Assembly (NCBI GenBank): GCA_021790425.1
Contig: JAJYEA010000003.1
Location: 1 to 64,000 of the forward strand
DNA: 64,000 nucleotides
Reading direction: 5' to 3'
From: Thermoplasmata archaeon
Lineage (GTDB): Archaea; Thermoplasmatota; Thermoplasmata; Lutacidiplasmatales; UBA184
Shown here: piece by piece, positions 1-14,571 of the stretch
Layout: each line of letters opens with the position of its first letter
Numbering within the stretch: position 1 is the first letter of the stretch
Position numbers and translations under genes: made by a program
The notes under the pieces: model-generated
Told to the model about the DNA's origin: nothing
The model's input: the letters and a program-made list of their open reading frames with translations, nothing else
The model's database searches: none

Positions 1-392
1 ATCCAGAGGGCCCCGTTCGCCTACGGCGTGGAAGGGTGTTATTGACAAACGGTATAGGCTACGTCGATTTCGGGGTGAAATGGTCGAGCGTGACCAAGTT
101 CAGCTGGGGGGTAGATAGAAGTTGGTCTCTTTGGGCGTTTGCCCACTATTTCAAGCGCAATAACCCGCGACCTCGTCAGCCTCCTGCCCCGGACCGAAGG
201 AAGCATTTCGGGCTTCGGCGCAGCGCGATCATGGTCTCGCTCGTTGCGACGGATGCATCGGTGTGCCTGTCGGGGGAGGGATGTACCTGCACCTCCCAAC
301 GTAGCGCCAAAGTGTGCCTTCCTCGAGAGAGGGAGCCGATCGACGGAGGCTCGTTCGACCTCACAGTTCCCGGTGATAACAGGAGGCCAACA

Positions 393-416
393 TGTCGGGA
401 GGGGTATACAAACCCC
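393..416. repeat. Putative distal attachment site: tRNA 3'-end fragment followed by ATACAAACCCC
   Basis: TGTCGGGAGGGG (393-404) identical to the tRNA 3' end at 13717-13728; ATACAAACCCC at 406-416 also occurs at 13697-13707. Confidence 0.6.
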
Positions 417-465
417 TGGGGGGTTAATATACTTGACAACTCGGGCCTAATCTCGCCAGGTTTCG

Positions 466-2415
466 CTACTGACTGAGAAGGCCCATCTCGTAGAGAAACC
501 GAGAGGGCGCTCTCTGCCAGCCACGGTACTTCTCAGCATAGGAACATGTAAGAGTATCCAGAGTTCTCGTTACCGCTACGTAACAGCTACGACGTTCCTC
601 CTCCATTTCGGGACCGTTGTCTCCGGCACGGATACTCTGGTACGAGGGCAATTCTCCTTCGACTAGTCCAACCAAATAGACGTGGTCGAACTCCTTTCCC
701 TTGGACCCATGGATGGTCATGAGGGGAAGAACACCCTTCTCGGGAGGTGCCTCCTTTGAACGGATATCCAGCTCGCTCAGGAACCGCTGTAGAGAGATAT
801 CCGGACCAAAGGCCCTCAGTATTTCATCTCTTACGTGAAGCAATCCTTTCCTCTCGTCGATGTAGTCCGCAAAGGTTCCCACTTGCTGGTCTGAACCTGA
901 CCTGTCCCCAGGGATGGCTATAGCGTCTAGCCAATCCAGTGCGGCATTCAGAAAGTATCTGACCTCTGAGCCGGGTGAGAGCCTTGTGTAGGGAGTGGCA
1001 ACTTCCAAGAGCCTATTGCTTGGACTACCAAGTTTGCGGACCAAGTCGGTTACTCGGTGGAAGTAGTCCTTCGACTGATCTGCCTCCAAGCGAACATGAG
1101 TCTCTGAATCTATCTGCGCGTCCAACAACCCAGGTAAGGTGCCCACAATCTCGGTGAATGCCTCTCGATCTCGATGGTCGTTCGCAAGCGACAACATCGC
1201 ATGCAACCAAGAAAGTGGAGTACTCTCAAAATCATTCTTCCGCTGGAGCACAACAGTTGGAAGACCCACTTCCCCTGCTGCTTGTTGTACTCCTTCAAGT
1301 AAGCTCCTGCTTCTTGCTATGACGGCAACCCGTTCCAAGTGAGTACTGTGGAGGTCCTTGACTCGGGCCACAACGTCGCGACATTCATCCTCAAAGCCAT
1401 CGAAGCCACCAAGGAGAGTGATTGGGTTCGTTGATGCAGGGGATCGAACTGACCTTATGGGCACTCTCCCAGCCGATCGACGGAAATTATTCTCTATGAG
1501 ATGGTTGGCGACGTCGACAACCTCGGCTGGACAACGGTAGTTGACAGGGAGCTGAATGACCTTCGCACAAAAGTCAGAAGAGAACTCTTCGAGCCGTCTA
1601 ACGTCGGCACCGTTCCACTGATAGATGATCTGGTCATCGTCGGCTACCACAAAGACTCCGGCACGATCACGAGGAACCAGAGCCTTCAACAGCTGATACT
1701 GCGCGAAGGTTGTATCCTGGAATTCATCGACACAAACCTGCGGAAAGACATCTTGATATCGTCGAGCGAAGACTGGGTAGCGGGTCAGGAGCTCGTGCGT
1801 CTTCACTATCATGGTCTCAAAGTCCAGCGCCCTGTGATCAAGAAGTGCCTTGACATATGCCTCATAGGCGAGAGAAACCAGGTTACTGTCAGGAAGATGT
1901 CCGAGCGTTTCCTGGGCATTCTGTGGCATCGTCAACTGGTTCTGAAGGTACCTAATGCCCTTCAGTATCTGGGAGACCATATTCCGGTCACCCGTCAAGT
2001 CCGGCGCAACCTCCCTTAGCGCCTCTACGAGGATTGCTTCGTGGTCACGAATCTCTGCATAGACTTTGAAAGAGGGATTGACTCCTACATGTTGTCCATG
2101 CTGCGACAGGACATCTGTGCAAAAACTGTGGAAGGTACCAAGGAAGAGACGATGGGCCTCATCTGGGACGAAGGACAGAACTCTCTGCCGCATCTCGTCG
2201 GCTGCCTTCGTAGTGAAGGTCAAACCAAGAATCCGAGACTTTTCTCCCTTGCTAGATTCCAAGAGTCTTGCGATTCGGCAAGTCAACACCCTAGTCTTCC
2301 CTGACCCAGGCCCCGCAATAACGAGGAGTGGACTAGATACCCACGATGCCGCTTCAACCTGAGTCTGGCTCAATTCCGCCCACGCCTTCTCAAAGTCCTT
2401 GGTCGCCATGGTCAC
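466..2415 (-). CDS. gajB: UvrD/Rep-like superfamily 1 helicase, Gabija GajB-like
   Basis: GPGSGKT Walker A, TFTTKAADEMRQR, VDEFQDTTFAQYQLL, DDDQIIYQWNGA, TIHGSKGKEFDHVYLVG, YVAVTRT motifs; GTGA overlap with upstream GajA-like gene. Confidence 0.85.
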   Translation of the reverse strand: MTMATKDFEKAWAELSQTQVEAASWVSSPLLVIAGPGSGKTRVLTCRIARLLESSKGEKSRILGLTFTTKAADEMRQRVLSFVPDEAHRLFLGTFHSFCTDVLSQHGQHVGVNPSFKVYAEIRDHEAILVEALREVAPDLTGDRNMVSQILKGIRYLQNQLTMPQNAQETLGHLPDSNLVSLAYEAYVKALLDHRALDFETMIVKTHELLTRYPVFARRYQDVFPQVCVDEFQDTTFAQYQLLKALVPRDRAGVFVVADDDQIIYQWNGADVRRLEEFSSDFCAKVIQLPVNYRCPAEVVDVANHLIENNFRRSAGRVPIRSVRSPASTNPITLLGGFDGFEDECRDVVARVKDLHSTHLERVAVIARSRSLLEGVQQAAGEVGLPTVVLQRKNDFESTPLSWLHAMLSLANDHRDREAFTEIVGTLPGLLDAQIDSETHVRLEADQSKDYFHRVTDLVRKLGSPSNRLLEVATPYTRLSPGSEVRYFLNAALDWLDAIAIPGDRSGSDQQVGTFADYIDERKGLLHVRDEILRAFGPDISLQRFLSELDIRSKEAPPEKGVLPLMTIHGSKGKEFDHVYLVGLVEGELPSYQSIRAGDNGPEMEEERRSCYVAVTRTLDTLTCSYAEKYRGWQRAPSRFLYEMGLLSQ

Positions 2416-4343
2416 CCCGCAAGATGGTCCAGGTCCTGAAGCAACTCTCGATAGTACTGCGGGATCTTTCTCACGTCAAAGTCGGGGGCGGCAATGAGCC
2501 TCGCCAGTCGAGCGGCGAACTGAACCTTGTGGTGGCCTGCCCTTAGAAAAGCCTCGATTGCTCCGTCCTGTGGAGTTGGCGACAGAATTTCTTCTGGAGC
2601 ACCTAGCCGACGAGCGGTGTCCAAGCACTCGGCCCTCAAACTACTCTGAAGAAGGAATCTCTCCAAAGTAGTGCCGCTGCCCGGGAGAACTCTCTGCCGC
2701 AACTGTAGGATTCTTGGGTCGAGACAAAGCTTGTCAACCTCCTGTTCGATGGTCCGGCCTCCGGAGTCGTTATCATAGGTCATTACCCAAGGAATCCCCA
2801 AGGTTTCAGCAAGTGCGATGAATACGCTCGCAGGGCCATTGTTCTGAAAGTCGATGATGCTGACACCGGAAGCGTCGCCAGCGGTATTGAGCTTGGAGGC
2901 AAGGGCTTTGAGAACAAAGAACTCTGATGGCCCCTCGCAAAGTAGCCAGCCTCTTGCAAAGAGTATCTCACCCCGGATTCTCTTGACACCAGTTTCAAGT
3001 GTGACAAGATCATCCTCAGAAAGGAAGAGTTGGGATGCACTATAGAGCGTATCGACCGTCCTAGTCTCCGGTGATCCTTGAGGGTATTCGTTACGTAGAC
3101 CCTCGCGCTCTCCATGGGTCATTCTTCGCTTTAGGGTAATGGTTCCCGAAGAAGGATTGTAGTCCCACCAGTCAGGAAGTTCGTGGCATAGCCTTGACAT
3201 CGAATTGGTCAGAGGCAACACAGTTGAGAAGCAGCGAGGGAGGGACTTGACTGATGCTCCCTCTTGACCATATTGTCGAACAAGTCTCAGTTCAGTGCTC
3301 GGAATCTCCTGGATGAGATGGGGTGAGTGTGTCGTCAGAATCGACTGGAAACTGACACGACCGAGATAAGAACCCATTGCCCTAATGGCTTGAGGATGAA
3401 GATGAGCTTCAGGTTCCTCGATCGCAAGAATTGCCTCAGTCTCAGGCTCGAACTGTTCCTTCATGAGAATCTCCACGTACGCCTGCATGAGGACGATGAC
3501 GGAGAGGCTCTGGAGCCCATGGCCGTGCTGAGCAAGTGGAAACCTGACTGGATTTGAGGGGCTGGCGTACATGGGTTGCGAACGTGACAGGAACTCCCAA
3601 GGCTTGAGGGGCATGGACGCAATGGCTGAGTGTTTCCCTGTCGACACGCGAATCACTTCCGATACTCGCTCAAGCGCGTGATTGAGGTCCTGAATGCTTG
3701 CGTCAGATTGCATGATAAGCGTGTTCAGAGACTCTACTTCTTTCTCAATCTGTTCCACGGCGTCAGCGGGAAGCTTCACTCCCCGTATTAATCGCCCCCA
3801 GAAACGTGAACGAGGCGAGAATTCTTGGTCGGAATCCCTTTGGGCGGGGAGATGGTAGAAGTAGACGTAGCTGAGAAATCTCGAGTAGTTCGTTGCGCTC
3901 GCACCGCGTCCACCCAATGGTTGACCTTGGAGATTGAGGAACTCCCATTTTGCAGGAAAGTCCTTCGTTGCAGTATCGTACTCACTAGAGAGTCGAAGGC
4001 TGATACTATTGATTCCGGTCTGTGGGTCAGTCTGGATGATTTCGTTCAGCGCCTGGCGTAACGGTTCGGGCCAAACATTCGCGGTCCTCTCCTTGAAGAG
4101 CAACTCTATTCGAATCCCTGGAACTGTTTCGGGACGATCCTCTGGGTTCACCATCCTATAGTCGTACTCATCGAATGGATTGATACGGCCGATAGGGTTC
4201 CTCGAGAGTGCAGCTCGAATGGCTTCAATGATGGCAGTTTTCCCCGAGTTGTTCTCCCCGATTAGGACAGTCCGGTCACCCAACTGAATCGTCAGATCCT
4301 CGATGTTCCTAAAATTCTGAATGTGAACCTCCTTCAATCGCAT
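2412..4343 (-). CDS. gajA: OLD-family ATPase/TOPRIM nuclease, Gabija GajA-like (ORF open to 4379; likely start MRLKEVHIQNFRN)
   Basis: IGENNSGKTAIIEAI Walker A, AIEEPEAHLHPQAIRAMG Walker B, TTHSPHL, TOPRIM motifs LLCEGPSEFF and YDNDSGG; directly followed by a UvrD helicase. Confidence 0.85.
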   Translation of the reverse strand: MRLKEVHIQNFRNIEDLTIQLGDRTVLIGENNSGKTAIIEAIRAALSRNPIGRINPFDEYDYRMVNPEDRPETVPGIRIELLFKERTANVWPEPLRQALNEIIQTDPQTGINSISLRLSSEYDTATKDFPAKWEFLNLQGQPLGGRGASATNYSRFLSYVYFYHLPAQRDSDQEFSPRSRFWGRLIRGVKLPADAVEQIEKEVESLNTLIMQSDASIQDLNHALERVSEVIRVSTGKHSAIASMPLKPWEFLSRSQPMYASPSNPVRFPLAQHGHGLQSLSVIVLMQAYVEILMKEQFEPETEAILAIEEPEAHLHPQAIRAMGSYLGRVSFQSILTTHSPHLIQEIPSTELRLVRQYGQEGASVKSLPRCFSTVLPLTNSMSRLCHELPDWWDYNPSSGTITLKRRMTHGEREGLRNEYPQGSPETRTVDTLYSASQLFLSEDDLVTLETGVKRIRGEILFARGWLLCEGPSEFFVLKALASKLNTAGDASGVSIIDFQNNGPASVFIALAETLGIPWVMTYDNDSGGRTIEQEVDKLCLDPRILQLRQRVLPGSGTTLERFLLQSSLRAECLDTARRLGAPEEILSPTPQDGAIEAFLRAGHHKVQFAARLARLIAAPDFDVRKIPQYYRELLQDLDHLAG

Positions 4344-4716
4344 TTCGTCACCACTTTGGAATCCCTCACTCCGTGGCAAGACACGTCATTTCCGCTCCTT
4401 TGACCCAACATCCTTCCTTCCATGCAACCTCGGGGAAGTTCAATCCTCACGGCCTATCACGCTTGCGATGCCTCTATCCCACTCAGAAAGCAGAGCAAGT
4501 ACAGCTCAGTCGAGGATGGCGCGGGACTTCCGGTACAGATCATACCTCGAGTGGTCGTCGCCTGCGCGTTACGGTCTGCATCCTCGACTCGAACCCGCAA
4601 GTCCGCCCTGGACCTCCGAGCATGTTGCATTACTGAGGGTAGTGATGGGGAGCGGTGCAAGGCCTGGGTTGGGCCCACACAAGTCTCTTTACGGTCAATG
4701 AGATGGGGAGACTGAC

Positions 4717-6045
4717 TTGAAGAGACGGAAGAAAGCCTCAAGCTCCGCATCAAGCGGAAACCCATCGCGGAAGGAGCAGGTACAAGAGCAGGCGGATTGG
4801 GATCAGCTCGTCGAGTGGACTGGGAGGGTCGACCCGGCGAGCGTCGATGCCTTGTCCGCTGCGAGGACACTTGACCCCTTCTTCCCCTTGCTTCATGCGA
4901 TTGCCGGGCGGAGCAAGAGGGACTTCTTCGCCAGGGTTGCCGCCCTCGAGACGTTGGCCACTTCTAGTCGCGTGTGGTTCTCTCCAGAGGATCTGAAGGA
5001 GGAGCTCTATTGGCTCGAGGAGGAACCACGAAAGCACGTTCTACAGGCGCTCCGCGCCTCAGACTGGCTCGAGTTTGACCCTGAACGAGGGACCGCAGTC
5101 ACTTCTCAGGGAGAATGGGCCTGCACGGTCCTGCGCTTCCTCCGGAGGGAAACTCAGGAGGGCGAGCTGCGCCCGGCGGTCGAAGGTCTTCGAGTGTCGC
5201 TCGAGCTCGACGAAGAGCACTCAGATCACCTACTGTCAGTTCGCAAGCATCTTGTGGACCTCTACGACCGAATCGAACGCGCACGCGCCTCACACTCAGC
5301 AGTTATCCTTCGTAGAGAGAAGAGTAGACTGTCGGAGGCGATAGATCTCTCGGCAGCAATTCGGGAGCTGGTCGACAGAGCCACTCTCGATGATTCAACC
5401 GCAAGGGGCGTCGCGCGGGCGATTCACGATCTCCTGTCCCGGCTTCACTACAAGGCAGGTGAACTTCATGGAGATATCACCGAACTTGGACGTCAGCACT
5501 TGGAGTTGACCGCCGGAGTCACAGTAGAACAGATAGTCGCAACACTGATGCGCTTCGAGAAGGCGGAGTTGGCCGATATCGGTCGAAGGGCGCTCTTGCC
5601 CGGTGTCAGACCACCTGCGCTTCTGAATGTGGAGATCGTCGCCTCCGCGGCAGAGCACCATTTGACTCGCCAGAGGGTGGCAAGGGAGGACGTCGTTTGG
5701 GAGGAACCTGCGAAGGTCGATGCCGTTCCTGCGGAACAGCTTTCTCCAGCAGAGATCGGCACATACCTGATGGACCTCGAGACTGCGTACGAAAGGATGC
5801 ACCCCACTCCGCTCGAACAGATTGTCTGTTCCGGCGATCGGAAGGAAACATTCTTGCGCATGAGCCTTCTCCCTTTGGTTGGCGAGAAGAACACCGGAAC
5901 AGGCGAGGTAGCCAAGTTGGGAGCCATAGATCTTGACGTCAGGGTCTCCGGTGATGGGTACCCAACATCTCTCGATTCACGCCCCATTAGACAACTTACT
6001 CCCGGCGAAGTACGCCCCAAACAATCAGGCAGGAGGCAAACGTGA
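4717..6045 (+). CDS. Wadjet JetA-like (MukF/kleisin-like) protein
   Basis: First gene of a 4-gene translationally coupled operon; predicted winged-helix region near N-terminus; TTG start. Assigned mainly by position upstream of JetB/C/D-like genes. Confidence 0.6.
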   Translation: MKRRKKASSSASSGNPSRKEQVQEQADWDQLVEWTGRVDPASVDALSAARTLDPFFPLLHAIAGRSKRDFFARVAALETLATSSRVWFSPEDLKEELYWLEEEPRKHVLQALRASDWLEFDPERGTAVTSQGEWACTVLRFLRRETQEGELRPAVEGLRVSLELDEEHSDHLLSVRKHLVDLYDRIERARASHSAVILRREKSRLSEAIDLSAAIRELVDRATLDDSTARGVARAIHDLLSRLHYKAGELHGDITELGRQHLELTAGVTVEQIVATLMRFEKAELADIGRRALLPGVRPPALLNVEIVASAAEHHLTRQRVAREDVVWEEPAKVDAVPAEQLSPAEIGTYLMDLETAYERMHPTPLEQIVCSGDRKETFLRMSLLPLVGEKNTGTGEVAKLGAIDLDVRVSGDGYPTSLDSRPIRQLTPGEVRPKQSGRRQT

Positions 6046-6848
6046 GCGAGCCTGCGGCTATTTGCGCGCGACTGATTCGAGAGGGGCCCATCCGAAGGGA
6101 AGAGCTGCGTGCGCTCGACCTCCCGGAGGTCAGAAGGGAGGTAGAGCGACGATTGGGAGAAGTGGGCCTGTTGCTCGCCACCAGTGCATACTCAAACTTT
6201 GTTGGCATCAAACTGGCGCCTGAGGTCCTCCCAGACGAAGCATTTGATTCTGCGTCCAACCTTGGACTCAACGCCGACGCATGCGCCATGCTCGTCATTC
6301 TCTGGTCACGCCTCATCCTCAGGAAACGGACCGTCAGTGACTCCGGCAGTGCCCCTGGACAGCAGACCCTCCTCTCCGAAGACCGATCCAAGCTCCTGAG
6401 CTCCTACGCTCCCACGGTGCGGATCGAGACGATCGTGCGAGAGTTTGGCGACATACTCGGTTCGAAACGCAACATCACTAGACTAATCACCCGACTCAGA
6501 AACCTAGGTTTCGTATCGGTCAGGGCGGGGAGGTTCCTCGAGGCGGGACCGTACCTTGAGCTAGCACTGGACGGTGACAAGATGATGGCGTTCGTGCGAG
6601 GGCGAATCCTGGGTGAGATTCTAGACAGGAAAGATGCCTCGACGGAAGCTGAACCTGAGGATGATCCGGAAGAGCGGGCCTTCGAGTTCATCCGCACGAC
6701 CGGACATCCCCTCACTGCGAAGGAGGTTACCGACGGGCTGAAGTTGAACTTGCCGCGGGTACGTCTCGCCTTGAAGAACTTGGTATCTGAAGGGAGAATC
6801 AAACCCATGGGGGATAGTTTGCACCGGACCTACACTCTGATGGAGTGA
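6042..6848 (+). CDS. Wadjet JetB-like (MukE-like) winged-helix protein
   Basis: 4-bp overlaps with both neighbours; size and position fit JetB; C-terminal wHTH-like segment (HPLTAKEVTDGLKLNLPRVRLALKNLVSEGRI). Confidence 0.6.
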   Translation: MSEPAAICARLIREGPIRREELRALDLPEVRREVERRLGEVGLLLATSAYSNFVGIKLAPEVLPDEAFDSASNLGLNADACAMLVILWSRLILRKRTVSDSGSAPGQQTLLSEDRSKLLSSYAPTVRIETIVREFGDILGSKRNITRLITRLRNLGFVSVRAGRFLEAGPYLELALDGDKMMAFVRGRILGEILDRKDASTEAEPEDDPEERAFEFIRTTGHPLTAKEVTDGLKLNLPRVRLALKNLVSEGRIKPMGDSLHRTYTLME

Positions 6849-9565
6849 CTGGAATGTTCCGCATCATCGAACTCACCCTCCACGGTTGGGACTACTGGCC
6901 CCCCGTCCGGATCCCTCTTGAGTCAGATGTTATCCTGGTAAGTGGTCCAAATGGAGCAGGGAAGACGACTCTCTTGGATGCCATCAGGCAGCTTGTCGGA
7001 GCCCGTCATTTATCGTCGCGACGCCGTCCCCAATCCTACTTGCGAAACCCTCAGAGACCGGCGATAGTGGTTGCCGTAGTCACTAATGTGGAGGGGGCGA
7101 GCGGGAAGCGTCCTTTCGCCCACGAGCGCTGCTTTGCGGACGAAGTCACTCTGGCTTGCGCACTTGTCCCAAACCCATCAGGGTCCCCAGAGAAGAGGTT
7201 CGCTCTGCTCGAAGGTAACGCCTCCTTTGAGGAGGTGCGGCGAGTACTTCTCGAGTCGAAGGACTTCCTGCAACCGGAGAGGTACCAGCGGCTGTTGGAG
7301 CTTGCCGGAGTCACCCCTAGCCTGTTGCGTGTGCTGGGCACTGAGCAGGGCGCCATGAACAAGGTGTCGGAGTGGAAACCGCGAGACCTGCTCCAGCAAG
7401 TACTCGACATGCTAGGCGACCAAGCGGTGCTCGACAACTATCGTGAGGCAAAGAAACAGTACGCGGCCGCGACCGAGGAAGCCTCGAACCAGGCTCATGC
7501 CCTGACACAACTGCAAGTTCAGTTGAATGAGATTCAGCGAGACGTCGGGAGGAGAAAGGAGTGGTCCCACCTCAAGGATAAGGTCGATGAGCTAGCGGCC
7601 GCGGTGCCAGCCACCCAACTTCAAGAATATTGGATCCAAGAGAAGGACCTCACATCCAGACCGGGCGAGCTGAAGAAGGGCCTCTCAGAGGCACAGGCTG
7701 ATCGCCAGCGTGTAGTCTCGCAGAGAGACTCCGCTGGCAAGAAGCAAACGCGAGCGAAAATTGAAGCGGATCAACTCCGCCAGGCGGAGGAGGCAGCAAG
7801 AGCCACTTGGTCCGATGCCGGAATCGCACTCGCTCGGACCTCAGAGGCTGTTTGTGCGGCAGCAGCCTCGCTCGAGAGAGCAAAGTCGCTTCCTGTCGGG
7901 GACCTTGGCACGTTGGAGGAGGCTGAGCTGACTGCTTCGGAGGAATTGGCCAAGGCATCGATCGAACGCAAGGAGTTCGAGGACAAACTCTTGCGAGCCA
8001 AGTCCACTCTTGGGCAACTTGAGAGCGGGGTCAGCGTCTATCCTTTGGAAGTCGAGAGTACGATGAGTGCTTTGTCGGAAGCTCGCATCAAGTACGAGAT
8101 TACCGCAAGGCTTGTTGAAGTGAAGGACGATGGACTGGGGGCGAGTGTAGAGGCTTCGCTCGACGATGCGAGGTTCGGGCTGGTCGTTGCCGAGAACGAA
8201 ATTGAGGACACTGTGAGGATCGCCCGGCACCACGGGTTCCCTGGCCCAATCTACTCTGGGCCGCGAATACGGGAGGAGAGTTCGGTCGGAAGCATCAAAA
8301 TCTCTACTGGAGCGCCAGAATGGATCGAGGACTGGGCCAAGGCAACCCAGATTGAAGAATCAGGGTGGAGGGACTTGAGAGGACGTTGGGTGGCGACTCC
8401 CTCCGGTCGCTTTCTGGGGAGAGCGGGACTGGAGGCCTCTCTGGTAGCCGCTCGTGAACAGCTTGCTAGCATCGAGAAACTCGTCAAGGATTTCGCAATG
8501 CGGTCCAAGGTTGCGAGTGCCCGCCTTGAATCGGCACGCGCAGCGACGGAGAATCAGAGAGAACGCATCCGTTTCCTCGACCAGGCAAAGAGCATAGAGA
8601 ACGATCGCGCTGAAGCGGAGAGGCTAAGCATCGCGCTTCGTTCGGCGCAGCAGGTCCACACTGCAGCGTTAGAGAATTGGAGAGAAGCAGATCGCATTGA
8701 GATCCTCGCAGGTGAGGAGAGAAAGGCACTGGAAGCACAGGTCAAGTCCGTCGATCAAACCATTCAAGGGTTGAGGAGTGAACTGTCGCACACCGAGGAA
8801 GAACTCGCCAGGATCAAAGCCCACATCGAGTCGCTCATGCAGACAGTGTCGGAACCCCTGCAACAGAAGGCAAAGATGCAGGGGTTTCGGTTCAGTTCTG
8901 CGGCCACCCAAAGGGATCTCGAAGTCGCCACCAAGGATCTCCAGACATTCGGGGAACCGCCACCAGAGAGCGTCGTGGAGCAGGCGCGGCTCCTAGAAGG
9001 GAATGTGAGAGACCTTGAACTCCATCTGAAGGAAAGACGACTACATGAGGAACGCGCGAGAGCCGAGGTCCAAGCGTGTGTCGAGAGATACATGGAAGTA
9101 GTGCAAGCGACACTGCGCGATTTCAAGCGAAGGGTAGAATCTCTTTCTCGACTGGCCAATGCGCGAGTAGAGGTCGATCTCCCCCCTGTCGGCCTCTCCC
9201 CTGAGTCAGTGGACGAGATTGGGATTTCAGTGAGATTTGGGTTCGATGGTAAGGAACCTATGCCTCTCGGAGATTCCGACTTCAGCGGGGGACAGCATGT
9301 CGTAGCGGGTCTTGTGCTTCTGATGGCGATGGCTCAGACCGAGGGAGGGGGCTTCTTCTTGCTTGACGAACCTTTTGCCCACCTCTCCCTGGATAGAGTA
9401 GAACAGGTAGGACAGTTCATGCACAGCACCGCTTCTCAGTTTCTCATCACCGCCCCGACAACAATCGACCGGGGTCAGCTCGACCCTGCCGCCCAGTTGG
9501 TCGTGCTGAGGAAGAAGGTTCACGGTGAAGAGTTCGCCCCACCTCCTATCATAGGCGTGGCATGA
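6845..9565 (+). CDS. Wadjet JetC-like SMC/RecF-family ATPase
   Basis: GPNGAGKTTLLDAI Walker A, long coiled-coil composition, FSGGQ signature, FFLLDEPFAHLSLDRV Walker B/D-loop. Confidence 0.8.
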   Translation: MTGMFRIIELTLHGWDYWPPVRIPLESDVILVSGPNGAGKTTLLDAIRQLVGARHLSSRRRPQSYLRNPQRPAIVVAVVTNVEGASGKRPFAHERCFADEVTLACALVPNPSGSPEKRFALLEGNASFEEVRRVLLESKDFLQPERYQRLLELAGVTPSLLRVLGTEQGAMNKVSEWKPRDLLQQVLDMLGDQAVLDNYREAKKQYAAATEEASNQAHALTQLQVQLNEIQRDVGRRKEWSHLKDKVDELAAAVPATQLQEYWIQEKDLTSRPGELKKGLSEAQADRQRVVSQRDSAGKKQTRAKIEADQLRQAEEAARATWSDAGIALARTSEAVCAAAASLERAKSLPVGDLGTLEEAELTASEELAKASIERKEFEDKLLRAKSTLGQLESGVSVYPLEVESTMSALSEARIKYEITARLVEVKDDGLGASVEASLDDARFGLVVAENEIEDTVRIARHHGFPGPIYSGPRIREESSVGSIKISTGAPEWIEDWAKATQIEESGWRDLRGRWVATPSGRFLGRAGLEASLVAAREQLASIEKLVKDFAMRSKVASARLESARAATENQRERIRFLDQAKSIENDRAEAERLSIALRSAQQVHTAALENWREADRIEILAGEERKALEAQVKSVDQTIQGLRSELSHTEEELARIKAHIESLMQTVSEPLQQKAKMQGFRFSSAATQRDLEVATKDLQTFGEPPPESVVEQARLLEGNVRDLELHLKERRLHEERARAEVQACVERYMEVVQATLRDFKRRVESLSRLANARVEVDLPPVGLSPESVDEIGISVRFGFDGKEPMPLGDSDFSGGQHVVAGLVLLMAMAQTEGGGFFLLDEPFAHLSLDRVEQVGQFMHSTASQFLITAPTTIDRGQLDPAAQLVVLRKKVHGEEFAPPPIIGVA

Positions 9566-10893
9566 GCGAAGGGACGGAACACACCTGCAGATTCCGTCCG
9601 CGGAAAAAGGCTGGAGCGTGGGAGGCTGTAGGCACAGTAGAGCAAAGGGGGTGGAGGCGGGTCCAAGTGTGCGGAGAGTGTGGACGGGAGCGCCTAGTCC
9701 GTCTTCTTCGCCCGCCGTTCTTGATTGAGGAGCGGGCGGCATTCCCAGTTTCCGAGCCGCTTAGCACAGAGAAATCGCGGTATCTCGCCGCTCGACTTCT
9801 TGCTCTTTCAGAGGGGAGGAGGCAAGACGTTGTCTCGGCAAGGGGACTATCTGGTCAGGTAGGGAAGAAGGGGGTTACCGTGACCGAGATGGAGGGTATT
9901 CTGCGAGGGTTCCTCATGGCCAAGTATGTCGAACTCCGGTGGTCACTGGCTGGTGAACGAAAGCTCCTCCGGTCGGTTGTCATCGTCAATCACAGGGCCT
10001 TAGCGGAGCACTCGGCTCCTGGCCAACTCCAGAAGGCTGAAGATACCCTCTCGGCTGCTTCAACGTCCCTTGTTTCGATTGGGCACCCGATTGCTGAGCA
10101 GGTGAGGGCCCTCCTCAGCGAGAAGGCCATCGCAAAGAACCCCCTCCTAGTTACTTGTCTCGCTGCCGTGGCGATTCACGCCTCAACTGGGGATGTCTTG
10201 GCAGAGCGTGTGTTCTCTGCCCGCTTCTTGGGAGACTCCAAGGCGTTGTCCAAGGTCAAGACGAGAGTTGAGGACCTTCTGGGCCCTATCGAGACCCTAG
10301 GGATCAGAGAAGGAGCCGCCGTCACACTACTCGGAGGCACCGGGGCCGTGGCGACCGAACATGCGAAGATAGATCTATCAAGCTGGTCCCCGTTCATCGG
10401 CCTCTCCCGGGAAGCATCCGATTCACTAAGACAGGTCCGACCGCCGGATGCTGGGATGTTCGTGGTCGAGAACTTGGCTGCTTTCGAGGCCTGTTGTCGA
10501 GGGGAGGTTCCCCCTGCCGTCGGGAAGATGATCCTCTGGTCCGCAGGTTATCCGGGCAGGGCCATCAAGCGGATAATCGAGCTGGCAGGAGCCTTCAGAC
10601 ATCCTGTGTGGGTATGGTGCGACATCGATGTAGACGGGGTCCGCATCGCTCGTTTGCTCAAGGAAGTCGCTGGGGGAAGAGCGATCGCATTCGCTATGTC
10701 ACCTGCCGCCTTACGAATCGACTCGAACACTCGTCCCATGACAGGTCGCGCAATCAATGCGTGCCGCAAGACCCTTGAAGCAGACCCCGGGGGGTTCCTC
10801 TCTGACACACTTGGGGCACTTCTAGATGCGAGATCATGGAGGGAGCAAGAGTCGTTGCTTGGGGACGCTTCGCTGTGGGAGCGTATCTCGTAG
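9562..10893 (+). CDS. Wadjet JetD-like protein (DUF3322-DUF2220/TOPRIM-like)
   Basis: LAERVFSARFLGDSKALSKVK resembles DUF3322; VVENLAAF and VWVWCDIDVDGVRIA resemble the TOPRIM-like DUF2220; follows an SMC gene with 4-bp overlap. N-terminal CxxC element. Confidence 0.8.
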   Translation: MSEGTEHTCRFRPRKKAGAWEAVGTVEQRGWRRVQVCGECGRERLVRLLRPPFLIEERAAFPVSEPLSTEKSRYLAARLLALSEGRRQDVVSARGLSGQVGKKGVTVTEMEGILRGFLMAKYVELRWSLAGERKLLRSVVIVNHRALAEHSAPGQLQKAEDTLSAASTSLVSIGHPIAEQVRALLSEKAIAKNPLLVTCLAAVAIHASTGDVLAERVFSARFLGDSKALSKVKTRVEDLLGPIETLGIREGAAVTLLGGTGAVATEHAKIDLSSWSPFIGLSREASDSLRQVRPPDAGMFVVENLAAFEACCRGEVPPAVGKMILWSAGYPGRAIKRIIELAGAFRHPVWVWCDIDVDGVRIARLLKEVAGGRAIAFAMSPAALRIDSNTRPMTGRAINACRKTLEADPGGFLSDTLGALLDARSWREQESLLGDASLWERIS

Positions 10894-11074
10894 GGAATCA
10901 CCCAGAGACATTGATGGCAGCTAGCCCCATGACGACATGAGCGATGCGGGACCTTCCCAACGCCCCGTCGCAGGACCCGTGGCAGGCTGACGGGCCCGCT
11001 CGGAACGTTGGGCCCCTCCCGCAGGCAGGTGGGTCACCTCGCGTCTCTACCCTGCGCTCGGCTGCTGCCTGCCA

Positions 11075-11372
11075 CCACTGACCACCCCCCTGGACGACAG
11101 CAGGGAAGGCTCCAAGACACCGATATCATATTGGCCGTGGCCACCCCCCTGGACGCGGAGCGGACACCCCCCAGTCGGACTCTGGCGGGAGCCTCGGAAC
11201 ATCAGAATACTATTGGAAACGGACACCCCCCTGTCCGCTCTGTTATTCGACCTCGAAGGCTAGGCGGGCTCAGTTCTACGCCGTAAGAGAAGCTTGTTCG
11301 AGTGCCGACACCCCCCTGTCGCTTTTGGGTACCCCCCTGTCCAGTGACGACACCCCCCTGTCGTCGATTTTT
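11075..11372 (+). repeat. Array of seven CCCCCC-loop inverted repeats; candidate structured RNA or protein-binding array
   Basis: CCCCCC loops at 11085-11090, 11144-11149, 11167-11172, 11226-11231, 11311-11316, 11332-11337, 11353-11358; most flanked by complementary arms, e.g. CGGACA-CCCCCC-TGTCCG and GACGACA-CCCCCC-TGTCGTC. Confidence 0.75.
11346..11372 (+). terminator. Terminator-like hairpin (last repeat plus T5 tract)
   Basis: GACGACA-CCCCCC-TGTCGTC-GA-TTTTT: 7-bp perfect stem followed by five T. Confidence 0.45.
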
Positions 11373-11457
11373 CTTCAGTAGGCTACAGTGATACTCCCTC
11401 TCATGTTGGGAAGAGTCGAGGGGGCCTGGCCATACCCGTGGGCTCAAAGGAGGGGGC

Positions 11458-11466
11458 AATTATATA
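11458..11466 (+). promoter_or_regulatory. Archaeal TATA box for the small ORF/GNAT operon
   Basis: AATTATATA preceded by purine-rich AAAGGAGGGGGC, 55 nt before the ATG at 11521. Confidence 0.5.
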
Positions 11467-11520
11467 CGTCTCCGCGTGGTGTCCTCATACGGGTAGGAGT
11501 AAGGAGGCGAGCACAGGCTA

Positions 11521-11673
11521 ATGGCATATCCACCACCAGTTCCGGTAGTCAAGGGGAAGGCGGCGAAGGAACTCTTGGAGGATCTCGACCGCTCCAAACC
11601 GCAATCCGCCAAGAACCCCCACTGGAAGGGGTCCAAGGCACTCTATCAGAAGTTACGTCCCAAGGAAGAATAG
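11521..11673 (+). CDS. 50-aa protein, candidate antitoxin (MAYPPPVPVVKGKAAKELLEDLDRSKPQSAKNPHWKGSKALYQKLRPKEE)
   Basis: ATG after AGGAGG-like sequence, TAG stop 3 nt before the GNAT start; absent from the supplied ORF track, apparently because it is short. Confidence 0.65.
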   Translation: MAYPPPVPVVKGKAAKELLEDLDRSKPQSAKNPHWKGSKALYQKLRPKEE

Positions 11674-11676
11674 GCC

Positions 11677-12255
11677 ATGGCTTTGCCGTCTTCCGAGCCT
11701 GAGAGGGTACCCCCCATTCGCGCGGAGGATCTCAGGATTGAGCCCTTCCGAGAGACCGCGGACGTTCGAGAGTTCGACTGCGACTGCAAAGAACTGAAGG
11801 ACTTCCTCACAACCGCGGAGGTGGCGGACTATGAGAAGAAGAACCTGGGGAAGACGTACCTTGTCTACTGGCAACCGGAGGGAGCCCTCGTGGCCTACTT
11901 CACCATCTCGAGTGACAGCCTGAGGTTTGACTACTTCAAGTCAGTGAAGAGCTTCTCAATCCCGGGAGAGATACGGACGAACACGATTCCCGGTATCCTC
12001 ATCGGAAGGCTTGCTGTCGACAACAGGTTCAAACGGCGAGACGTCGGAACTCACCTCCTTCGGTACATCGCAGGATTGGCACTCTCTGCACCAGCGGCCG
12101 CAAGAATCCTCTTCCTAGAAGCCTATCCGAGCGCCCTCGACTTCTACCAACGACGCGGATTCATCACCATCGAGCACCAGAAGCTGAAGAAGCGTCGGAA
12201 CCGGCTGATATACTTCGACCTGACCACTCACCCTGACTGGGACGGAAACAGATGA
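11677..12255 (+). CDS. GNAT-family N-acetyltransferase, TacT-like toxin candidate
   Basis: IGRLAVDNRFKRRDVGTHLLRYI acetyl-CoA motif and FYQRRGF C-terminal motif. Confidence 0.8.
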   Translation: MALPSSEPERVPPIRAEDLRIEPFRETADVREFDCDCKELKDFLTTAEVADYEKKNLGKTYLVYWQPEGALVAYFTISSDSLRFDYFKSVKSFSIPGEIRTNTIPGILIGRLAVDNRFKRRDVGTHLLRYIAGLALSAPAAARILFLEAYPSALDFYQRRGFITIEHQKLKKRRNRLIYFDLTTHPDWDGNR

Positions 12256-13658
12256 GCCTGCTCGAGTGGGAACTCGGACCCGGGACGAATTCGGTTCGCG
12301 GGCGACGATAGAACCGCTTGGCCAGTGTTGATCGCGGCCACGAACTGCCACCCCTCCGCAAGCCGCTGAGCGACCTCGCTCATGGAAACAACGACTTGAT
12401 GCGGAGTCGCAGAGGCACCCAGCCGCTCCCTCACTTGGTCGCGGACCGCCGCCAAGTCGTCCAGGTCCATCTTCCCAATCTCCTCCTCGCTGAACCCGGC
12501 CAGCTTAAGCATAGCGATCGCAACCTGCTGAGGTACGTTCTCTTGCTCCTTGGTGCGGATTGTCATCAGGAACGGCTCGCACCGGAGGTAGGCTGCCCGG
12601 GCCTCCTTCATGAGGTCCTCTCCCCAGGGCTTTCCAACGTTGTACCTCGCCGCCACACCGCCGTCGTGGCCCAGGATGGCCTCCCGGAGGTCACGCGTGA
12701 TCTTTCCAGCTCCCTCGGCCATCATGAGCCGAGTGCTACAGTAGGCTCTCAGAACGTAGGGTCGCCAACGAACCCCCTGGGGAACAGTTGAATCAAGGGA
12801 GGAACGTATCTCCTCCATCACCGTCTTCGTTGTCAGGAACCCTCTGCTGTAGGTAGCCGTTTCCCGCGACTTCTGGGCAACTCCCCGGGTCGGATTGGCA
12901 GTGACTACGGGGGATTGTGGCGTTAACTGCTCCCCCGAATTCTTCCGCTCGCCAAGGTAGGCCAGGAAGGCCGTGCTCAGTTGGGAGGACCCGAAAGTCG
13001 TGTACATCACTCGCGTCTTGCTCAAGCGGGCTGGCACCCGTATTACGAAGGGGGATTCTGCAAAAGAAGGAGTCGTGTCGAACTTCAGATCCGGCAGATC
13101 TCCCAGCGACAGACCCCCCTCTGCGAGGTAGGAACCCAACACACCGGGGCGGACGCCGGAATGGGCCATGAACAAGGCGATTACTCGGCCTCTGAGGGAG
13201 AGCTTGTCTAGGACCGTGCCGAGCTCCTCCTGGGTGGGAACCCGCTCGGTGGTCAGACTCGCCCCCTTGATCGGGGAGAGCGAGGGGTAGCCGTCGAAAG
13301 GAACGTGATGGAACCGGAAGAACGCTTTCAATCCCTCGAAGTACTTCGAAACATAGCTGTCGAGCCTACCCGCCGCCTTGAGAGTTGCCGCATCTCGAAT
13401 GAGGAGCGTTCGCAGTCGGTCGGGGTCTTTCTTGGCCAGCGCAACCACTCTTTCAGGGTCAAGATTAATTCTCTCGAGGAGCATTCCGAACTGACGGAGA
13501 TACTGGTCCGCGGACATGCGGGAGCGTAGTGACCTCGCCTCCCACCATGCCCGGACCTTCGGGTGGGAGAGCAGCTGCTTGTGCCGGCCCACGACCCTCC
13601 CCTTATCGACGGGTTCAAAAGGTGCTTGCGTAGGAGGTTTGGTCGCCCGTTTCGCCAT
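12228..13658 (-). CDS. int: Tyrosine recombinase/integrase
   Basis: AHSGVRPGVL, YVLRAYCSTRL, ILGHDGG and AARYNV resemble the catalytic R, (H/R)xxR, H and Y regions; adjacent to the tRNA att site. Confidence 0.8.
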   Translation of the reverse strand: MAKRATKPPTQAPFEPVDKGRVVGRHKQLLSHPKVRAWWEARSLRSRMSADQYLRQFGMLLERINLDPERVVALAKKDPDRLRTLLIRDAATLKAAGRLDSYVSKYFEGLKAFFRFHHVPFDGYPSLSPIKGASLTTERVPTQEELGTVLDKLSLRGRVIALFMAHSGVRPGVLGSYLAEGGLSLGDLPDLKFDTTPSFAESPFVIRVPARLSKTRVMYTTFGSSQLSTAFLAYLGERKNSGEQLTPQSPVVTANPTRGVAQKSRETATYSRGFLTTKTVMEEIRSSLDSTVPQGVRWRPYVLRAYCSTRLMMAEGAGKITRDLREAILGHDGGVAARYNVGKPWGEDLMKEARAAYLRCEPFLMTIRTKEQENVPQQVAIAMLKLAGFSEEEIGKMDLDDLAAVRDQVRERLGASATPHQVVVSMSEVAQRLAEGWQFVAAINTGQAVLSSPANRIRPGSEFPLEQAHLFPSQSG

Positions 13659-13678
13659 GGTTCCAACAGGGCCGAGAA

Positions 13679-13686
13679 TATATAAA
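13679..13686 (-). promoter_or_regulatory. TATA box of the integrase gene
   Basis: TTTATATA on minus strand, 21-28 nt before the ATG at 13658, consistent with a leaderless transcript. Confidence 0.55.
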
Positions 13687-13716
13687 TCTCTTGCGGATAC
13701 AAACCCCCCCAGGGGA

Positions 13717-13821
13717 TGTCGGGAGGGGGATTTGAACCCCCGGCCCCGGGATATCTCAAGGGCTTCCTCGCGGAAGGCCCTCTATGAGTCCCGTGCTCTA
13801 ACCAGCCTGAGCCACCCCGAC
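13717..13821 (-). tRNA. tRNA-Met(CAT) (or tRNA-Ile2) with ~30-nt intron in the anticodon loop
   Basis: Acceptor GTCGGGG/TCCCGAC+A, T-arm GGGGG-TTCAAAT-CCCCC, anticodon stem CGGGA/TCCCG with loop CTCATA interrupted by GAGGGCCTTCCGCGAGGAAGCCCTTGAGAT. Confidence 0.85.
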
Positions 13822-13845
13822 GCCGGGGGGTGAATCCAGGGACAA

Positions 13846-14571
13846 TTAAGGCGTTGCCTCAGGAGCGGGTGCCTCGGCCGCCGGGGCGGGAGGCTCCCCG
13901 CCCTCGACCGGGGCCACGGGCTCCGTGCTCGTGGGCAGGGCCTCAGGGATCTCCCCTTCCACGATGCTCGCCCGGATGTCGATCTTGCGGAGCGGGTAGA
14001 GGAGACGGAGGCCGTTCGTGACCTCCTTGACGACCTCGCCGTTCAGCATGTCCCGGACCATCTCCGTGCCCGTGCGCTTGGCAGCCTGCTCCTCGAGCAG
14101 GGACTGCATCTTGTGGCGGAGCAGGGCGCGGAGGCGCGTCTGGAGGTGGTGCTCGCTGACGGCGACGGGCTTGACGGTGATGACGACCCCGTCCTTGGTC
14201 GTGACAGGGAAGGAGATGTCGATCTTGGAGCGCTTGCGGCGGGCCAGGCGGCGGATGTAGTCGCTGGTGAGCTCATGGCCCACGAAGCGGGTCACGGCGA
14301 CGTTGCCCTCCTCGATGCGGGTGACCTTGAACCGGAGCTTGACGTGCGAGGTGGAGGCGTCCCCCGTTCCCGAGAGTTCGTTCATGGCAACCTCGAGGAC
14401 ACGGCCGACCATCGTCGACGGCTCGGAGGTCAGGGTCTCCCCTAGGTCCACGCCGTGGAACATGGCAGGGGCCCGGGCCTTGTACCAGACCTTGGAGCGC
14501 CACTTGTCCTTGACCGCACGGGTGCCCCGCTGGCCCTTCTTCTCTCCGCCCGCTTCCTTCTCCTTGGGCAT
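13846..14571 (-). CDS. rps3ae: 30S ribosomal protein S3Ae
   Basis: MPKEKEAGGEKKGQRGTRAVKDKWRSKVWYKARAPAMFHGVDLGET... typical S3Ae. Confidence 0.93.
   Translation of the reverse strand: MPKEKEAGGEKKGQRGTRAVKDKWRSKVWYKARAPAMFHGVDLGETLTSEPSTMVGRVLEVAMNELSGTGDASTSHVKLRFKVTRIEEGNVAVTRFVGHELTSDYIRRLARRKRSKIDISFPVTTKDGVVITVKPVAVSEHHLQTRLRALLRHKMQSLLEEQAAKRTGTEMVRDMLNGEVVKEVTNGLRLLYPLRKIDIRASIVEGEIPEALPTSTEPVAPVEGGEPPAPAAEAPAPEATP

Follow-up and report, generated by a model that had tools for sequence, protein, structure and literature searches.

Origins of the lambda type carry their iterons inside the gene of the initiator O or of an O-like protein (HTH_36; phrog_270, phrog_391 and phrog_678), and in lambda O binds these iterons, which are inverted repeats, as a dimer (PMC7466680). 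Lambda is arrested by ectopic lambda origins (PMC4488673), the iterons are required for the lambda inhibition phenotype and the AT-rich part is dispensable (PMC3349717), and the origins of lactococcal phages confer phage-encoded resistance (PER) in trans (PMC8965321). Semi-palindromic noncoding iterons also occur in the satellite PLE of Vibrio cholerae, which encodes its own RepA (PMC8263062).

The window analysed here, a stretch of 64,000 nucleotides from a Thermoplasmata archaeon, contains an array of seven short sites centered on C6 tracts that recalls each of these systems in part. With lambda-type origins it shares tandem interrupted palindromes about two helical turns apart, and its C-tract design is identical to that of many metagenomic phage origins; unlike a lambda-type origin, it has neither an initiator gene nor a clear AT-rich region, it is irregularly spaced and it lies in an archaeal element. 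The likeness to PER and to the ectopic lambda decoys (PMC8965321, PMC4488673) consists in origin-type sites devoid of a replication function of their own in a defence setting, but those are laboratory plasmid constructs, whereas the array is natural and chromosomal and its function putative. The PLE likewise has intergenic iterons in an integrative antiviral element; in contrast to it, the element described here encodes no recognisable initiator. Orphan viral-type iterons in an archaeal element that carries defence genes are the best explanation of the array: the kind of site is already known, and the setting without an initiator is the unusual part.

The element and its array

The array lies in a stretch of about 13.3 kb (392–13728) that is probably an integrative element at an intron-containing tRNA gene; this is suggested by 13 bp that repeat the 3' end of the tRNA, together with an integrase-type gene adjoining the tRNA. 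The region comprises the following features:

392–404, minus strand: CCCCTCCCGACAT, 13 bp repeating the 3' end of the tRNA (13716–13728), probable other end of the element
466–4379, minus strand: Gabija (GajB 466–2415, GajA 2412–4379)
4717–10893, plus strand: Wadjet-like operon with genes for proteins of 442, 268, 906 (SMC/JetC-like) and 443 aa (JetD)
10894–11520, unstranded: intergenic region holding the array, between the jetD-like gene and a small ORF
11459–11467, plus strand: TATA-like box (ATTATATAC), located about 95 bp past site 7 and upstream of the genes for the small protein and GNAT
11521–12255, plus strand: 50-aa protein and GNAT acetyltransferase, a pair conserved at related loci, which are without the array
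12228–13658, minus strand: 476-aa integrase-type protein, a tyrosine recombinase by inspection and position
13717–13821, minus strand: tRNA gene with an intron and, by inspection, a CAU anticodon; probable attachment site

Neither of the two leading genes in the Wadjet-like operon (442 and 268 aa; 4717–6848) has a match in Pfam, PADLOC or NCBIfam, so the operon may be a divergent Wadjet type; no homologue of its JetD was found among 200 genomes of the class. The 50-aa protein (MAYPPP...) adjoins GNAT at related archaeal loci with 30–47% identity (L087–L091, L093, L094, L230 and L231), and the two are a possible uncharacterised toxin-antitoxin pair, for which the TATA-like box would serve as promoter. 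The integrase-type protein, which has no Pfam or NCBIfam match, has relatives that are common in related genomes and widespread in the family, and the same genome encodes another integrase of this family, at 35% identity (G000:C152:185-1480). The contig (C41) begins just outside the left end of the element. The archaeal source and the Wadjet-like and GNAT neighbors, all proposed in an earlier note made from the letters of this DNA, were confirmed; for the partial 16S gene of the genome the archaeal model scores best, with bacterial models competing.

The seven CCCCCC tracts start at 11085, 11144, 11167, 11226, 11311, 11332 and 11353, at successive spacings of 59, 23, 59, 85, 21 and 21 bp, exactly as the earlier note had given them, and define these sites:

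Site 1, 11080–11095, plus strand: GACCA-CCCCCC-TGGAC, one A-A arm mismatch
Site 2, 11139–11154, plus strand: GGCCA-CCCCCC-TGGAC, one G-A mismatch
Site 3, 11162–11177, plus strand: GGACA-CCCCCC-AGTCG, degenerate right half-site
Site 4, 11220–11237, plus strand: CGGACA-CCCCCC-TGTCCG, perfect 6-bp arms
Site 5, 11306–11321, plus strand: CGACA-CCCCCC-TGTCG, within GCCGACACCCCCCTGTCG (11304–11321), which is identical to one iteron of viral contig L169
Site 6, 11325–11344, plus strand: TTGGGTA-CCCCCC-TGTCCAG, pairing only via G-T wobbles
Site 7, 11345–11366, plus strand: GACGACA-CCCCCC-TGTCGTC, 7-bp arms, followed by ATTTTTCTT

The array is a series of repeated sites with interrupted dyad symmetry, single-copy and unique within the 2.5-Mb genome. 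Six exact copies of ACCCCCCTG fall within its 280 bp, where 1.18 are expected per whole 64 kb, and the four plus-strand C6 tracts of the window with the longest flanking complementarity all belong to it. An A-T pair closes six of the seven tracts (the note had said nearly all), the exception being the A-A mismatch at 11167. The claim that the arms differ yet stay complementary was likewise borne out by exact permutation among the seven sites, in which arm pairing is site-specific at positions 1–7 with Watson-Crick pairs only (p = 0.005), with G-T pairs allowed (p = 0.0016) and at positions 1–5 (p = 0.014). Sites 1/2 and 3/4 represent an 82-bp unit that occurs twice in diverged form (11085 to 11167; 11144 to 11226), and sites 5–7 follow at 21-bp spacing; intervals of 21, 21 and 23 bp make up three of the six, the other three measure 59, 59 and 85 bp, and only three sites stand in 21-bp phase. 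TRF does not call the array as a tandem repeat. The T5 run reported after the last repeat is there, at 11368–11372.

RNA and DNA readings of the repeats

Titration RNAs of the CsrB/RsmZ type consist of several hairpins with a constant loop, a design that the array shares, but its loop is poly-C and it shows no excess folding. As RNA, the region 11070–11385 gives z = 0.09 on the plus strand and 0.26 on the minus strand against dinucleotide shuffles, so that the stability above shuffled sequence characteristic of a CsrB/RsmZ-like RNA was not found over the whole region; the 3' part (11290–11385) folds slightly better (z = −1.7). An Rfam search of 8000–14000 returned the tRNA only, and about 390 genomes of the phylum hold no homologous array on which covariation could be assessed. 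The note had also suggested looking for the C6-hairpin array beside other archaeal GNAT modules, and at eight related GNAT loci it is absent.

A hairpin RNA whose C6 loops titrate a protein or another RNA, the reading put forward in the note, is on these results unlikely. It would account for the site-specific complementarity of the arms (p 0.002–0.014), but this complementarity does not select RNA, since it is equally expected of DNA to which a symmetric dimer binds. The further argument that the wobbles favour a plus-strand RNA depends mainly on the site at 11332; the left arm there differs from GGACA by two transitions, which a degenerate half-site explains equally well. Sites 4, 5 and 7 (11220–11237, 11306–11321 and 11345–11366) are terminator-like on the plus strand, each with a T-rich stretch after it (three against 0.4 expected), which would suit a hairpin RNA and also a series of terminators after the Wadjet-like operon. 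Such a series is highly improbable: it leaves the constant C6 and the first three sites unexplained, and archaeal termination relies on T runs, not on hairpins. In all probability the array is DNA to which a protein binds, and not a novel hairpin RNA.

Three more specific associations were considered and rejected. A tie of the array to the GNAT module was discarded on account of the same eight loci, a tie to the integrase on account of the 5–20 kb around related integrases, which contain no such array, and a type III toxin-antitoxin repeat RNA because the downstream gene encodes a GNAT and not a ToxN-type nuclease and the related GNAT loci are without repeats.

Comparable iterons in phage O-like genes

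An iteron-type origin, which the earlier note had listed among its alternatives, proved to be the better lead, as phage genes for O-like initiators contain tandem dyads of the same C-tract kind. When viral contigs were scanned for pairs of neighbouring ACCCCCCTG sites, 75 loci emerged, 39 of them distinct. Many have the same ACA-C6-TGT core at 21–24 bp, and their outer arms vary from phage to phage while often remaining complementary; these first phage arrays were found by the window's own motif, so some of the likeness is built in. O-like replication-initiation families are matched by 16 of the 28 ORFs that hold or adjoin the viral arrays, sometimes followed by primase/helicase genes, as against 2 of 14 ORFs for the 19 loci of a reversed-pattern control; once two redundant or adjacent ORFs are removed, the comparison stands at 14/26 versus 2/14 (Fisher p = 0.016). 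The C5 version of the pattern yielded 16 loci, and 13 of the 14 ORFs scanned there are O-like (HTH_36 in 12). One iteron of viral contig L169 is identical to site 5 at 18 of 18 positions, the iterons of L240 (GACGACACCCCCTGTCGTC) correspond to site 7 with C5 in place of C6, and palindromic iterons of about 22 bp with C or G tracts were located inside O-like (HTH_36) phage genes at L169, L232–L245, L027 and L257–L277. The stronger dyad spans the spacer, not the C tract, in several phage arrays.

The only test free of motif selection, although its protein queries still came from motif-selected loci, used 25 O-like genes selected by protein similarity, 21 from annotated phages and four from MAGs that belong to the same class of archaea. 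Tandem 8-mers at 19–27 bp occur in 20 of these genes, where codon shuffling predicts 3.9, and a C4 or G4 tract stands in the repeated unit of 13 of the 25 (0.8 expected); the record of phage BK5-T annotates a repeat region at the same place as its tandem repeats. C-tract palindromic iterons are a genuine and common property of O-like origins, and this signature is usable for locating phage origins from sequence alone. Protein-based recovery of further O-like loci from viral contigs was without success.

Two phylum-wide pattern scans for archaeal relatives of the array returned the window and chance-like matches only, DNA similarity searches in plasmids and phages gave nothing meaningful, and the exact core appears in the literature only by chance, in unrelated papers. 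No initiator gene is recognisable in the element, an O-like match is missing from the genome (none to phrog_270; best match to the A4 profile, E = 0.2), and tblastn with 47 proteins found no meaningful trace of a decayed initiator in 10894–11520. The best flank of the array is 60% AT, a value equalled at 17% of random places, in a weak test in which most phage arrays also miss significance.

Possible uses of an array without an initiator gene

With moderate confidence, and judging from sequence comparison, the array can be read as DNA comprising seven iterons for a lambda-O-like (HTH_36 winged-helix) initiator whose gene is absent. Each site is a palindrome interrupted by its C6 tract (GACA-C6-TGTC, the outer arms being variable), to which a dimeric initiator supplied by an infecting virus or a plasmid would bind in trans; the sites look like the binding sites of the lambda-type family and would be expected to work like them. 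This reading is supported by the core, the 21–24 bp tandem spacing and the phage-specific complementary arms seen in viral contigs, as well as by the lack of excess RNA structure and the mobile type of the host element. Against it count the missing initiator gene, O-like genome match and remnant, the lack of a clear AT-rich unwinding region, the irregular spacing (59, 23, 59, 85), the stronger dyad on the spacer in several phage arrays, and the location of the O-like genes of the archaeal class on short, possibly misbinned MAG contigs. The array is not filed as a lambda-type origin because it has no initiator and no clear AT-rich flank, half of its intervals are irregular and some phage arrays have their better dyad on the spacer.

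The binding of lambda iterons by O dimers and the precedents of ectopic origins and PER suggest three possibilities for an orphan array, namely a helper-dependent origin, a relic, and a decoy or sensor; the first is ranked highest, followed by relic and decoy. The likeliest use, which overall is proposed tentatively, is a helper-dependent origin of the excised 13.3-kb element, which would be copied whenever the helper virus replicates; the element would then be an archaeal satellite copied by the initiator of a virus. It is doubtful that the array is a relic, in which case the iterons would now be functionless and would descend from a virus or plasmid in which defence genes took the place of the initiator gene. 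The lack of an initiator, the irregular spacing, the degeneracy of sites 1, 3 and 6 and the element's foreign composition (GC 0.57 for 1–14000 vs 0.66 for the whole window) would fit such a descent, but most dyads are still good and the arms pair site by site.

Slightly more doubtful is a special case of the iteron reading, drawn by analogy, in which the array would be an origin decoy or infection sensor: the iterons would titrate a viral initiator, in the way that phage origins cloned in the laboratory titrate initiators and so protect cells, or binding of the viral initiator upstream would activate the small-protein/GNAT pair, and the captured initiator would either starve the origin of the invading virus or turn on the GNAT pair alongside Gabija and the Wadjet-like system. 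The array stands amid Gabija, Wadjet-like and GNAT genes without an initiator of its own, its seven sites exceed the usual 2–5, an unwinding region is not required for this role, and both the block of lambda by ectopic origins (PMC4488673) and PER in trans (PMC8965321) are in keeping with it. However, the array is a single chromosomal copy whereas the lambda experiments relied on a multicopy plasmid (PMC4488673), no virus with matching iterons is known for this host, and the array does not recur in the related genomes scanned. A natural decoy on a defence-carrying element, if true, would be a new defence principle and one that is easily tested. No more probable than the decoy, and still ahead of the hairpin RNA, is an operator array, whose dyads would be bound by some regulator that is not an initiator and that governs the small-protein/GNAT or the Wadjet-like genes; the dyad symmetry, the 21-bp helical phasing of sites 5–7 and the nearby TATA-like box agree with it, but the array is missing at related small-protein/GNAT pairs, none of the element's genes was recognised as a regulator and ordinary operators rarely keep the spacer between half-sites conserved.

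HTH_36 O-like initiator genes, most of them with iterons, were also observed on short MAG contigs of the same archaeal class (L252–L255), which could be archaeal viruses or misbinned phage contigs; one of these contigs bears an integrase as well.
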